Assembly: GCA_011390755.1 (NCBI GenBank)
Contig: JAABRU010000005.1
Span: forward strand, 1-64,000
Length of the DNA stretch: 64,000 nucleotides
Source of the DNA: Desulfobacteraceae bacterium
Lineage (GTDB): Bacteria > Desulfobacterota > Desulfobacteria > Desulfobacterales > Desulfococcaceae
Direction of reading: 5' to 3'
In this document: positions 17,322-61,500 of the stretch, piece by piece
Numbering within the stretch: the stretch's first letter is position 1
Layout: each line of letters opens with the position of its first letter
The notes under the pieces: model-generated
What the model was told of the DNA's origin: nothing
Database searches by the model: none
Seen by the model: the letters and a program-made list of their open reading frames with translations, nothing else
Made by a program: the position numbers and the translations under genes

Positions 17322-18650
17322 ATGATAAAATGCCCTGTATGCCAAAGTGAAGTACACAAGCCCGTTCCCCCTTTCTGTTCCCGATGCAGTTGGGATCTGA
17401 AAAATGATCTGACAATGGGGACCTTTCTGGACCTGCCGGATGCCGTGATTGAGGAATACCGGCAGCGGGTGGGGATTGCTGTAAAGAACTGGAATGAGAA
17501 AGCGGAACTGCTGAAAAAGCAGGCGGAACTGGAAGAAAAACTGCGGCGGATGGAAGCGGAGAGGAAGCAGAAAAAAGTGGCGGAATCTGCGCCGGAGCCG
17601 GAAGCTCCCAAAGCAGCGGGAAAACCCGCATCAAAGCCGTCTTCTGCGGAATATTCGGAAAAAACAGCGGTTCCCTTACTGAAAAGAGACCCTTTTGAAA
17701 CCCTTGCGGAATTTGAAAAGCGGATCAATGAATATCCCCCGGTTCCGGCCGGAATGGCGGAACTGATGAAGGATGAATATGATATTCAGTCCGGGAAATT
17801 TCCTTTACGGGTGAAATGGGCCGAATGGATGATAAAAGAACTGCCGGATTCTCTTCAGAAGAATGACAATCTGCATGTCCTTGCGGAGCGGGACAAAGCC
17901 CGCAGAATATATGAAGCCGGAGCAAAACACTGCCTGTTTGTCTGCCTGAAGGCTTTTGGAGAAAGGGTTTCTGCCGAAAAACCGGAAATATCTGTCCGGA
18001 ACCGGATTCTTTCGGTTGTAAGCAATTTGGCTCCCAAAGTCTGGAAAGAACCGGTAAGCGGCATGGAGTTTGTTTATATTCCAGCAGGTATCTTGGAGGA
18101 AAAATGGCTGAAAGGTTTTTACATGAGTAAATTTCCTGTGACACAGGGACAGTGGAAAGAAATTATAGGGAGCAATCCATCCCATTTTCAGAAGGGGGAT
18201 GACTACCCCGTTGAAAGTGTGTCTTGGAATGATACAAAGGAATTTATCAGGAAACTCAATGAAAAAAATCAGGGAAGTTATAAATTCCGCCTTCCTATGG
18301 AAGCCGAATGGGAATATGCAGCTCGGGCAGGGTCGGACAGAGTTTGGTGCTTCGGTGATGATGAAAGCCTGTTGGAGCAGTACGCTTGGTATAAAAAAAA
18401 TTCCGGCGGTTCCACCCATCCCGTTGGGCAGTTGAAACCCAATGCCTGGGGGCTGTACGACATGCACGGCAATGTATGGGAATGGTGTGAGGATGCGGAA
18501 GGGGCAGGCCGCGTGCTTCGCGGCGGGAGCTGGTACATCGGGGCGGACGACTGCCGGTCGGTCATCCGGAATTGGAACGACCCCGGCGGGCGGCTCAGCA
18601 ACCTGGGCTTCCGTGTCCTCGCAGTTCCGGCGCAGGGTCGGGCCAGGTAA
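17322..18650 (+). CDS. FGE-sulfatase (C-type-lectin-fold) protein with N-terminal zinc ribbon; putative DGR variable protein
   Basis: CPVCQSEVHKPVPPFCSRC ribbon; VTQGQWKEIIGSNPSHF, YPVESVSWNDTKEF, FRLPMEAEWEYAARAG, GLYDMHGNVWEWCED, RVLRGGSW...CRSVIRN...GFRV. Confidence 0.9.
   Translation: MIKCPVCQSEVHKPVPPFCSRCSWDLKNDLTMGTFLDLPDAVIEEYRQRVGIAVKNWNEKAELLKKQAELEEKLRRMEAERKQKKVAESAPEPEAPKAAGKPASKPSSAEYSEKTAVPLLKRDPFETLAEFEKRINEYPPVPAGMAELMKDEYDIQSGKFPLRVKWAEWMIKELPDSLQKNDNLHVLAERDKARRIYEAGAKHCLFVCLKAFGERVSAEKPEISVRNRILSVVSNLAPKVWKEPVSGMEFVYIPAGILEEKWLKGFYMSKFPVTQGQWKEIIGSNPSHFQKGDDYPVESVSWNDTKEFIRKLNEKNQGSYKFRLPMEAEWEYAARAGSDRVWCFGDDESLLEQYAWYKKNSGGSTHPVGQLKPNAWGLYDMHGNVWEWCEDAEGAGRVLRGGSWYIGADDCRSVIRNWNDPGGRLSNLGFRVLAVPAQGRAR
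18507..18650 (+). other. candidate DGR variable region (VR)
   Basis: 3' end of FGE gene; run of NNC codons (tac atc gac gac gtc atc aac gac ggc ctc agc aac) at the positions occupied by AAC in typical DGR templates; GC-rich relative to the upstream gene body. Confidence 0.7.
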
Positions 18651-18660
18651 AGCGGAGGTC

Positions 18661-18715
18661 GGAAGGGGTACGGTTTCCGTTCGTGCGCTAGCCGAACGGA
18701 AACCGTACCCCTTCC
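18661..18715. other. perfect 23-bp inverted repeat (9-nt loop) 10 bp downstream of the VR-bearing gene
   Basis: ggaaggggtacggtttccgttcg-tgcgctagc-cgaacggaaaccgtaccccttcc. Confidence 0.95.
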
Positions 18716-18825
18716 GTACCGGAGCGTCCGGTTTTCAGTCAGGAAATTAAAAAGGGGGGTGCAGGGGGGATATATCCCCCCTGCTTTTCCCGCGCGGTAT
18801 AAATGAGAATTATCTTAGCTACTGA

Positions 18826-19243: not shown

Positions 19244-20596
19244 ATGAGCGGCGAAAAACGCACCTATGTATCGGTGGAAGAGCGGGAACTGCAGCGGCTG
19301 AGAGAGCAGGAAAGCCGTCTGCGGACCGTAAACCGGGATCTTCCGGAGCGTCTCAATGCCATCCGGCAGCAGGCACAGCGGGAAATGCAGAACCGGCTTG
19401 CGCCTATGGAAGCCCGGCAGCAGCGCCAGGAAAAAATGGTCAAAGGACTGCAAAGCGACCTGTGCCGTCTGGAAAAAGACACGCAGCAGCGTCTGGCCCG
19501 TCAGCACCGGGAATTCACAGACAGTCTGCGGCAGCAGCGGGGAGAATACCTGCGCCTGTTTGAGCAGCAGGATCGCAAATTCACCGGTATGGTGGAAAAT
19601 GAGCGCAGGGAGCGTCAGGCCGCTGTGCGGGATTTGCAGAACCAGATAAACGTGATTGTGGCCGATGCAGACCGCAAACAGGCAGCGGCCGCCGCTTTTG
19701 TCTCCGATCTGTCAAAAATTATGCAGGAAACCGCAAATCTTCCCCATGACCGCTTTGCACCCGGTCACATGGAAAATATCCGCCGCCATGCCGAAGATGC
19801 AAATCGCAGTCTGAATGCGGGAATGCCCGAAGCCTGCCTCAGCACGGCCCAGAAAGCCTATTGGGATTTGGCGGATTTGCGGGTACTGGTATTGCAGAAG
19901 GAAAGGGAATTCATGTTTCTCCATCAGGCAGCAATGGAAGAAGCCCGTGCCATTCTCGAAGAGGCCCGCGCCAACCGTCAGTATCAGTTGGAAGTGGGGG
20001 AAGGCACGGAGCGGGATGTGTTTTCCCTGGAAGTGGATCACTGGACAGACGGGGATTTGTCCGCATATGAAAAGCAGATTGCGGACTTGGAAAATTACCT
20101 GCGGGAAGGGGAAAATAATTTAAGCACGGAGCAGGTGCGGGACATACTGGAACAACTGGAATCCTTAAAACCCCGGATGCCCGAAATTGTGGAACATGCC
20201 CGGCAGAATATCCTGGCCTCCCAGTTGCGGAGCAATATTGCGGAACTGGCTGTGGAATCCTTTCAGAGAGAAGGTTTTTCCGTGGATGATGCTGCCTATG
20301 AGGGCGATGACGAGCGCAATGCCTATGTGGTGAAAATGAAAAACCGGGCAGGCAGCGAGGTGGTCACGGTCATCAGCCCGGTGCAGGGCGAATTCGGCAA
20401 AAATACCGTGTCCGTCCATTCCTATGATGAACTGTTTACAGATGAAATCACCCTGCAGCAGCGGGCAAAGGAACTGGTGGGAATGCTGAACGAAGAAGGA
20501 CTGCAGGCAGGTCCGCCGGAATGCAGGGGCAGCGCAAAACCGGAATTCCGGGATATGGCAGCCGTGCGCACACGGAAAACCGGAGCATCCGCATGA
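19244..20596 (+). CDS. coiled-coil protein of AAA+ module
   Basis: 450 aa, Arg/Gln/Glu-rich heptads; ATGA overlap with the AAA+ gene (20593-20596). Confidence 0.7.
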
Positions 20597-23157
20597 ATAT
20601 TCCCCGCATTTGTCATTCCGTCCGTGCCGACAGCGGAAGTCCTTTTATCATCTGGTACGGAAACGTCAATGACGAGTTCTGCGATGAAGACCTGATCTTC
20701 GGCAATATTGACTTTATGCTCTGGCGGTATTTTCAGCAGCAGGGATACCGGCGCATTGTGTTTTTCCAGGGTGCGGAAAAAATCTATTTCTTTGATGAAC
20801 AGTCCCGCAGCCTCTGTCTGCCGCAATCCGCAGCCCCGGCCCGGCAGACCCTTTCCCCGCTTTCCGGCATCCGCGGCGGGCCGTTGGGAAAACGGAATCT
20901 GCTGGGAAGACGGTCTTCGGCTCCGGCTTCTTCTGAAAACGGAAACAGAAATAATCCCCCGGAAAATCCTGTAAGCAGACCCCAGCGGAGCATGAGCGAT
21001 CTGTCCGCGTTGCAGATTATGGATCACATCATCCGGCGGGAAAACATTCCCACGGCTGTTATCTTCACCCATGCCGAAGACCTGCCGCATCTTCAGGGAG
21101 TCCGGGAATTGCAGAACCGCATGGTGCATTGGGCCAGAATGCCTTCCCGCAGCCCCGGCCGCTGTGTTTTTGTTTTCCAGTCCTGGGATCGGGAAAAACT
21201 GGAGCGGACCGTAGAGGGGAGCGGGCTGAGTGTGCTGTCCAATTTTCTTTCCGCGGGACAGGAGCGGGAAAGCAGTATCATCCGCATTGCCGGGCCGGAT
21301 CAGACCGAGATTCTGCACACCATCCATTATTACCGCATCTGCAAAGGACTGCGGGTGGACTGGAAACACCTGGAAAAAATCGCTGTCCGCTTATCCGCCG
21401 AAAACCTTCGCCTTTTCGAACTCCGAAGCAGGCTGGAGCAGTCAGAAGAACTCAGCACGGACACCCTGCGCGCATGGTTCCCGGCTTCCCGTATCTGTAA
21501 CGACAAACCTCCTTTGGAACGTCTGGACGAACTGGTCGGCCTTTCCGGAGTGAAAAATCAGATCCGCAGAAAAACCGCAAGAGCCGAGGTTTTTCGGGAA
21601 AATTCCTTCGGAACCCTTCACATGGCTTTTCTGGGCAATCCCGGAACCGGCAAAACCACTGTGGCCGAACTGGTGGGCGAGATTTACCGGGACATCGGGC
21701 TGCTTGCACGCGGCCATACGGTGACAGCCGAAAACCGGGAAGCTCTGGTGGCCGAATATGAGGGACAGAGCGCAGTAAAAACCAACGGCCTGATTGACCG
21801 GGCGCTGGACGGGGTGCTGTTCATTGACGAGGCCCATAACCTCATCCGGGAAGAAGGCAGCGATCCTTTCGGAACCGAGGCCGTCCGCACCCTGGTGGCC
21901 CGGATGGAAAGGGAGCGGAACCGGCTTTGTGTCATCCTTGCCGGGTATCCCGAACCCATCCGGCGGTTGATAGCCTCTGATCCGGGACTCCGAAGCCGCA
22001 TCAAAGATGAAATCCTGTTTGAAGACTACAGCCCGGAGGAACTCATGGAAATTTTCCAACGCATGGCCCAATCCCGCACATCAGAAGAAATTCCGTCCCC
22101 GCTTCCGGAAACCTGTGAAGCGGTTTCCGCTGTGATACAGCGGATATATGAAGCACGGAATCCGGCAGACTGGGCAAATGCACGGGAAATCAGAAATCTG
22201 TATGAGGACATGCTGGACTCCTATGCGGTCCGTGTCCACCGGAACCGTGAACAACCGCTCCCGCACGCTCGCGGCTCAGACAATCTGCTCGCAGAGGATA
22301 TTCCCGAAAAATACCGGCCTGTCCCGCCGTCAGGAACCGAAGAAACCGAAACCCTTCTCCGGGAAATCGAATCCATGACCGGGCTGAGGGCAGTGAAAGA
22401 TTTTATCCGGCGCCAGGTGGCATATATCAAAGGCATGGAGCAGCGCAGAAAATTCGGTCTTCCTGTATCTGAAAACCGTTCTCTGCACATGGTCTTCACC
22501 GGAAACCCCGGAACCGGCAAAACCACCATAGCCCGGCAGATGGGGCGCATCTTCCAATCTTTGGGAATTCTTCGCAGAGGTCATTGCATTGAAACCGACC
22601 GGGCCGGGCTGGTGGCCGGTTATATCGGGCAGACCGCCCCAAAAACCGAAGCCAAAGTCATGGAAGCTCTGGACGGTGTTATCTTCATTGATGAAGCCTA
22701 TACCCTGAGCCGGGGCAGTAACGATAATCAGCGTGATTTCGGACAGGAGGCCATTGACCAGTTGCTGAAAATGATGGAGGATTTCCGGGGACGGCTGGTG
22801 GTCATAGCCGCAGGTTATCCGCTTGAAATGCAGCAATTTATTGACAGCAACCCCGGATTTCGCTCCCGTTTTACCCAGTATGTGGATTTTGAAGATTACT
22901 CCCCGCAAGAACTGGTGGAAATTTTCAGATATTTCTGTTATTCTTCTGCGTACCGCATGACTTCTGAAGCTGAAAAGCATCTCCGCTCCTATGCGGAAAG
23001 AATCTTTGCCGCAAAAACAAAAGGATTCGGAAACGGCCGGGAAATGCGAAACCTGTTCGAGCGGGCCGAAGAATCCCTGAACCTGCGGATTTCAGAGATT
23101 GCGGAACCTTCGGAAGATGATCTTTGCACATTTCAGCCGGAGGATTTTGCTGTGTGA
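20593..23157 (+). CDS. tandem CbbX/SpoVK-like AAA+ ATPase
   Basis: Two Walker A motifs [18 protein letters not shown] and [18 protein letters not shown]; two Walker [15 protein letters not shown] and [14 protein letters not shown]; start at MNIPRICHS. Confidence 0.92.
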
Positions 23158-60030: not shown

Positions 60031-61500
60031 CTACTTTTCCCACACCAGCCGGAATCCGACATCACTGAATTTTTCCTCCTGTCCGTAGCGGAAGCGCCGG
60101 GTGCAGGGTTCATATTCCGGGGGACTGCTCCAACTGCCGCCCCGGACTACTTTGTATTCGCTCTCTCCGGATACGAGTGGGGAAAATATCCCGTGTTTTT
60201 CATAGGCATTATCCTGAAAACGGTCTTCACACCATTCCAGCACATTTCCTTTCATATCACATATGCCGGAAGCATCCGGGCAGAAATTTCCAACTTTCCG
60301 GATTTCCTCCGTATCCGGCAGGAATTCTTCCTCTTCCCCCATCCTGCAGGCATACTCCCATTCGGCTTCGGTGGGAAGTCGGTAGCTTCCGGAAACGTCG
60401 GGATGCTGATTCCGTCTGCGGATAAATTCCTGTACATTTTTCCAACTCACAGATTCCACCGGGCAGTCCGGCCCGCAGTCGGAAAAAGTCGAAGGATTGC
60501 TCTGCATTATTTTTTCCCACTGTCCCTGTGTCACTTCATTCCGGCTCATGTAGAAAGAATTTAGGCAGACTGTATGGAGCGGAGTTTCATTTTCAAAGCA
60601 TTCACCTTCTTTTCCGCATCCCATTTCAAAGCATCCGCCCGGAATCCCCATGAAGGCCATACCGGTCAGGGGATCAGTGACAGACGGATCGCCCGCATGG
60701 GAAGAAAAAAACAGTTTGGCATTCCAGCAGAGCACAGCGGCCCGGACGGATATTTTCTCTATGCGGAAGATCATAAACAGGCAGATACATATCAGAATTC
60801 CGATGCCTGCATATTTCCGTGTTTCCGGACGGATAAATGAGGCAATGGGAAAAGCGGATTTGCCGAAAATATACCGTACCAGGGCTTCCAGTTCATTCCC
60901 GTGAATCTTTAGGACGGTTTTCTGTTCAAATACCTTTCGGGCAGACATTCTGCGGAATTCCGCCAGAGACATCACCCGCACATCCGCGGCTTCGGCCATC
61001 TGTATGTGTTTTGTTTTCAGATTGGCAAGGGGAACAATGAACAGCCGGTCTTTTGTCTGTGAGATAAAAGATGCCATCTTTATGCCAAAAAGATTGGGAA
61101 AGACTTCTTTTAAAAAAGGTCTGTCATTGACAATATGAACAGTCCCGGTACACCAGATATCCTGTGTTTCGGATTTCCACCGGCTGCGCCCCCCTCTGCG
61201 GATCAGTGCCAGCAGATAGGCCAGCCCCTTGGAATCTCCCAGATAGGGCAGCGGTTCATCCTTGCACTCATAAATCCGCAAATCCGTTTCAAAGGATTCC
61301 GGGGCCAGCATGGAGGCCACGGTCAGCACTTTGGAAAGAGAACCCATTTTCGGATCATCAGCTTCCTGCGCATCCCCGATCTCAGGAGCATCATATCTGG
61401 CCGTAAAATAGCGTCCGCACCCGATAAAACGGTTTTGGGAATCAATATTGGGATAGGCAAAGCGGATGTCAGTTATCAGTGAACAGTTATCAGTTGTCAT
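60031..61500 (-). CDS. FGE-sulfatase domain protein with N-terminal Lon (S16)-like region and central TM
   Basis: C-terminal GIPGGCFEMGCGKEGECFENETPLHTVCLNSFYMSRNEVTQGQWEKIMQSNPSTF...VVRGGSW...DVGFRLVW; TM YAGIGILICICLFMIF; N-terminal LGDSKGLAYLLALI...DIWCTGTVHIVND...LFIVPLANL. Confidence 0.8.
   Translation of the reverse strand: MTTDNCSLITDIRFAYPNIDSQNRFIGCGRYFTARYDAPEIGDAQEADDPKMGSLSKVLTVASMLAPESFETDLRIYECKDEPLPYLGDSKGLAYLLALIRRGGRSRWKSETQDIWCTGTVHIVNDRPFLKEVFPNLFGIKMASFISQTKDRLFIVPLANLKTKHIQMAEAADVRVMSLAEFRRMSARKVFEQKTVLKIHGNELEALVRYIFGKSAFPIASFIRPETRKYAGIGILICICLFMIFRIEKISVRAAVLCWNAKLFFSSHAGDPSVTDPLTGMAFMGIPGGCFEMGCGKEGECFENETPLHTVCLNSFYMSRNEVTQGQWEKIMQSNPSTFSDCGPDCPVESVSWKNVQEFIRRRNQHPDVSGSYRLPTEAEWEYACRMGEEEEFLPDTEEIRKVGNFCPDASGICDMKGNVLEWCEDRFQDNAYEKHGIFSPLVSGESEYKVVRGGSWSSPPEYEPCTRRFRYGQEEKFSDVGFRLVWEK

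Follow-up and report, generated by a model that had tools for sequence, protein, structure and literature searches.

The target gene and its surroundings

The window, by which we mean the whole stretch of 64,000 nucleotides analysed here, carries on its forward strand an open reading frame of 442 amino acids (positions 17322-18650) whose C-terminal end reads ...GRVLRGGSWYIGADDCRSVIRNWNDPGGRLSNLGFRVLAVPAQGRAR. Residues 260-433 form a C-terminal FGE-sulfatase or C-type-lectin-fold domain (Pfam FGE-sulfatase, E=6e-37), and the best PDB sequence match of the product is TvpA, the variable protein of the diversity-generating retroelement (DGR) of Treponema denticola (2y3c, E=6e-29). The N-terminus, described by eye, is zinc-ribbon-like and includes a coiled coil. 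As to the active-site cysteine pair that marks a catalytic formylglycine-generating enzyme, the aligned paralogues have a single invariant cysteine in the C-terminal loop, and the neighbouring slots are variable. A preliminary description of this DNA had remarked on a GC-rich 3′ segment in an otherwise AT-richer gene, and indeed the GC content is 0.67-0.69 across 18450-18674 versus 0.39-0.53 in most of the gene body.

Downstream lie a gene (19244-20596) for a coiled-coil protein that could be placed in no known family and, adjoining it on the forward strand, a gene for a CbbX/SpoVK-like protein with two AAA domains and an AAA_lid_6 domain (20521-23157). A further FGE-sulfatase gene occupies 60031-61500 of the reverse strand; its body matches that of the gene at 17322-18650, and it shows no match to the template treated below.

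One template and three variable repeats

The preliminary description had read the 3′ end of the gene, from 18507 to 18650, as the variable repeat (VR) of a remote DGR target, with neither a reverse transcriptase (RT) nor a second copy of the repeat in the window, and had proposed a genome-wide search allowing A-to-N mismatches. The genome of the organism itself (G000) is a draft assembly of 6.9 Mb in 379 contigs, 91% complete, and it was searched with the VR and then with the pattern of the candidate template in which every adenine was masked. This masked pattern occurs at exactly four places in the 6.9 Mb, each with 0 mismatches, so that the template came to light with every non-adenine base in agreement: the template repeat itself on contig C47 (2072-2176, minus strand), the VR of a cis target on the same contig (2783-2887, minus strand), the VR of a remote target on contig C190 (41283-41387, plus strand), and positions 18509-18613 of the window, in the gene under study. 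The pattern run backwards as a control gave 0 matches in the genome. As expected from the description, the other three matches, and all eight RT matches of the genome, lie on contigs other than that of the window. The VR pattern found no match in IMG/VR, and therefore no phage origin is indicated.

When extended, the template repeat comprises 124 bases with 31 adenines (G000:C47:2061-2184, minus strand), and the VR copied from it spans 18501-18624 on the plus strand. The two differ by 15 substitutions, all of them at template adenines (15 of 31 changed), while the 93 non-adenine positions are identical (93/93; hypergeometric P=3.8e-11). The same rule holds for the VR on C47, with 18/18 differences at adenines (hypergeometric P=1e-13), and for that on C190, with 16/16 (P=6e-12), which makes 49/49 for the three VRs pooled; the pairwise differences between VRs (18, 20 and 14) also fall without exception at template-adenine positions. 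Judged by how its sequence departs from the template, 18501-18624 is a genuine DGR variable repeat, and a single template serves three genes, its neighbour on C47 and two remote ones, namely 17322-18650 and the target on C190. The identity proposed for this region thus stood, although its 3′ limit had been set 26 bases too far. The VR lies at the 3′ end of a gene with a predicted C-type-lectin fold, the placement by which DGR targets are recognised.

The account of the codons fared less evenly. Twelve slots had been listed as NNC codons derived from AAC, and this is right for the eight that face AAC in the template (TAC, ATC, the second GAC of the DD pair, the ATC after GTC, AAC, CTC, AGC and AAC), whereas three others face GAC (the first GAC of DD, GTC and the GAC of ND) and the listed GGC is fixed, the template also having GGC. 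Two further variable slots had been missed, in which AAT became CTT (L) and AAG became GGG (G). The widest slots of the template are its eight AAC, two AAT and one AAG codons, a stop being reachable only from AAG, and with 17 codons open to change it could in theory encode some 10^16 different proteins.

A C-terminus of this kind could in principle belong to an ordinary FGE-domain gene with fixed codons that merely looks like a DGR target, since the FGE-sulfatase family is large and the RGGSW and GFR motifs are common to all its paralogues. The existence of a separate template copy, with adenine-directed differences only, already refutes this reading, and the homologous target in the family member G002 differs from our gene at the variable slots, which leaves an ordinary gene with practically no probability. 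No template matching its own target was found in G002. The template of another DGR in the same genome, on contig C60, was also considered as a source of 18501-18624 and was rejected, because a search of the genome with it matched only the VR of C60 itself.

The bases that should not vary are strikingly uniform. All 93 non-adenine positions are identical for every pair of targets and against the template, whereas in the 200 bases just upstream of the VRs the pairwise identity among the three targets is 82.5%, 68% and 65.5%. At third-codon non-adenine positions, 38/38 are identical between the VR at 18501-18624 and the template, versus 43/67 upstream between the gene 17322-18650 and the C47 gene (Fisher P=4e-6). 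Such a contrast is not expected from selection on the protein, and rewriting from one template accounts for it.

The sequence downstream of the variable repeat

The stretch just 3′ of the VR, from 18625 to 18660 on the plus strand and including the stop codon, was delimited by the flank identity profile and by alignment. It is not part of what the template supplied, yet the three targets agree in it at every aligned base (32/32), the gene 17322-18650 differing only by two small insertions, and it is probably a target-recognition segment. Identity of this sort, present in the three genes and not in the template, is also what would speak for plain gene conversion among the three FGE genes, or for their having been duplicated recently, without any retrohoming. 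That process, however, should scatter differences over all bases, instead of confining the differences from the template and those between VRs to template adenines, and the flanks are 62-83% identical as against 100% for the non-adenine bases of the VRs; we therefore hold it to be very improbable.

Immediately beyond, 35 bases past the end of the VR, begins an inverted repeat able to form a hairpin or cruciform (18660-18716), with perfect arms of 24 bp at 18660-18683 and 18693-18716; a hairpin or cruciform 3′ of the VR is a further mark of DGR targets that is present here. The hairpins behind all three VRs are far more stable than shuffled sequences (z of -10.3, -8.1 and -9.5) and their apex is largely conserved among the sibling targets. 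Across the 29 pairs of the arms, 21 are constant and 6 are compensated, while of the remaining two one is disrupted in a single target and the other falls in a gap, a covariation that comes from three sequences, all paralogues. The compensated arms suggest that pairing of the stem, rather than its sequence, may be what is needed at 18660-18716. This agrees with the Bordetella phage BPP-1, where the hairpin 3′ of the VR requires stem pairing and not sequence, and where the loop follows the consensus 5′-GRNA (PMC3240598). An inverted repeat close behind the VR is likewise shared with BPP-1, and the C190 hairpin has a GGTA loop, but the GCTA loop of 18660-18716 departs from GRNA, the stems of the targets reach at least 24 bp instead of 7-10 bp, and the distance of 35 bases from the VR compares with 4-34 reported for phage DGRs (PMC3240598).

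For a wider comparison we took 79 loci with related RTs. In most of them we found a template and a VR that differ mainly at adenines, and the usual arrangement is VR-accessory-RT-TR. In these related DGRs, z is below -2.5 in 25/51 of the 110-base segments 3′ of a VR, versus 2/44 for equal lengths 3′ of a template repeat (TR), the 51 VRs being a hand-picked list from loci that are partly non-independent. The changes in the hairpin arms and this contrast between VR and TR extend the requirement for a target hairpin, proved in one phage, to a chromosomal lineage of HRDC-type DGRs. The C60 DGR has a hairpin loop GGAGGGACGGA 3′ of its VR, with a similar form in several relatives.

Farther downstream of the target gene there is a second perfect palindrome (12+12; 18761-18784), whose 24 bases read GCAGGGGGGATATATCCCCCCTGC. 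It is present on C47 as well, downstream of the sibling target there, and it recurs on contig C56 inside a 39-base match.

We are nearly certain that 18501-18624 is the VR of a DGR target, rewritten from the template at C47:2061-2184 on the minus strand. RNA from this repeat would be copied by a DGR RT with misincorporation opposite adenines, and the mutagenised cDNA would then take the place of the 3′ part of the target. Two elements would guide its homing, the hairpin 18660-18716 and the sequence identity in which the repeat ends on its 3′ side. The outcome would be a new ligand-binding surface on the FGE domain of the product. The sequences themselves show the pairing of template and VRs, the adenine rule, the homogenised non-adenine bases, the compensated hairpin arms and the deletion of the RT on C47, which is described below; we infer retrohoming as the mechanism, its recent activity and the ligand-binding role.

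A template without an intact reverse transcriptase

The genes on C47 are ordered as cis target, accessory ORF, RT remnant and template, so that a DGR accessory ORF and an RT C-terminus precede the template, in the order VR-accessory-RT-TR also seen in C60 and in many relatives. The first ~80 residues of the accessory ORF are 40% identical to the HRDC accessory protein of C60 over 77 aa, and its frame is fused directly to the last ~55 residues of a DGR RT (RT query 279-332). Relative to C60, C47 lacks about 1.1 kb, which corresponds to the HRDC half of the accessory gene and the whole RT catalytic core; the remnant and the C60 RT share no more than about 33% identity. From its gene content, the C47 locus is a degenerate DGR, whose template does not stand beside an RT with the (I/V/L)GxxxSQ motif of a complete cassette. 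The description of 17322-18650 as a remote (trans) target was borne out in that its template lies beside DGR components on another contig, even though the RT itself has been deleted there.

The DGR-type RTs of the genome that carry an IGNLxSQ motif are those of C60 (IGNLISQ, complete, 336 aa), C159 (IGNLSSQ, complete) and C213 (truncated), and the remaining RTs carry QGxxxSP. The C60 DGR (L040:148-5480) is a complete HRDC-type system with a metallophosphoesterase-NACHT-FGE target, an HRDC accessory gene, an RT and a template, in which 16/17 differences between VR and template over a 128-bp repeat fall at adenines; the best named matches to its RT are mostly from Desulfobacterales. The C159 DGR (L043:3658-7969), also complete, has an Lcl_C target, a bAvd-like accessory gene and an RT that ends in a MutS_I domain (Pfam E=2e-9), and 15/15 of its differences lie at adenines. 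These two intact RTs have templates of their own and belong to classes other than that of the C47 template. The C213 DGR (L039:7446-13498) is degraded, with an RT truncated at both ends and an FGE target with a VR-like end, for which neither template nor second copy was found on its contig; toxin-antitoxin-like genes flank it on both sides.

With the RT beside the C47 template deleted, a working enzyme must come from another locus or from the allele of another cell, or else the system has recently died. The last of these possibilities, to which we give slightly less than an even chance, concerns present activity and does not dispute the identity of the VR: past retrohoming would be real, and since the deletion no RT would recognise the template, leaving the three VRs frozen. 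The loss of the RT core, together with the larger part of the accessory gene, points in that direction, as do the degraded C213 DGR of the same genome and the leftover targets retained by T. denticola strains without core DGRs (PMC4891356). On the other hand, the non-adenine bases are still 93/93 in each of the three VRs and the three reading frames are open, so that any death of the class must be recent. Moreover, trans diversification of degenerate loci is still possible in Thiohalocapsa PB-PSB1 (PMC10907252), where activity in trans was considered the best explanation for degenerate loci whose VRs agree with a template at every non-adenine site.

Given the draft state of the genome, the deletion could also be peculiar to some strains or stem from an error of assembly. 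Most cells would then possess a complete accessory-RT-TR cassette acting both in cis and in trans, which is unlikely but a serious alternative: intact and broken DGR variants coexist in natural Thiohalocapsa populations (PMC10907252) and our genome is a multi-contig draft, but the junction is internal to a single contig of 56 kb, and neither an RT of the C47 class nor an orphan RT core of that class was found elsewhere in the assembly. If retrohoming from C47 continues, the RT and the accessory protein would be supplied either by cells with an intact C47 locus or by one of the sibling DGRs, for instance that of C60. A split class, in which the RT-less template feeds three scattered targets with the help of an RT of a different class (e.g., C60) in trans, seems to us possible though doubtful.

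This is a known kind of element, and the less usual feature is a template class without an intact RT in the assembly. The T. denticola DGR, with an HRDC accessory gene and several remote targets (PMC4891356), is alike in the HRDC-type accessory overlapping the RT gene, in its FGE/C-type-lectin-fold targets and in the several remote targets per template; it differs in that C47 has lost the RT and the greater part of its accessory gene, and in that the N-terminal parts of the targets are of other kinds. Thiohalocapsa PB-PSB1 likewise has several DGR loci, some of them degenerate, remote targets, and FGE domains on conflict-type proteins (PMC10907252), but it keeps one complete locus per class.

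Ternary conflict systems of the MoxR-vWA/iSTAND type contain DGR-diversified FGS domains with templates elsewhere in the genome (PMC7159879). The C190 target (L038:67-5422) is arranged as in those systems: an iSTAND gene and one for a MoxR-type AAA protein precede it, and its C-terminal domain is FGE. By this neighbourhood the locus may be regarded as ternary-conflict-like, and the FGE end of its target draws on the same template as 18501-18624; a vWA domain in this target was not confirmed by Pfam. Unlike C190, no such iSTAND or MoxR-type neighbours were identified around the gene 17322-18650. Published systems and the sibling targets together suggest that its product could be a diversified sensor in a conflict or immunity-like system.

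A large contig-based survey of DGRs stated that remote targets were beyond its detection (PMC8144416); here such a target was first spotted from the codons of one gene and then proved through a template on another contig. The C47 case offers a natural test of the trans use of a template without its own RT and, if the split class were true, the pairing between templates and RTs would be looser than thought.
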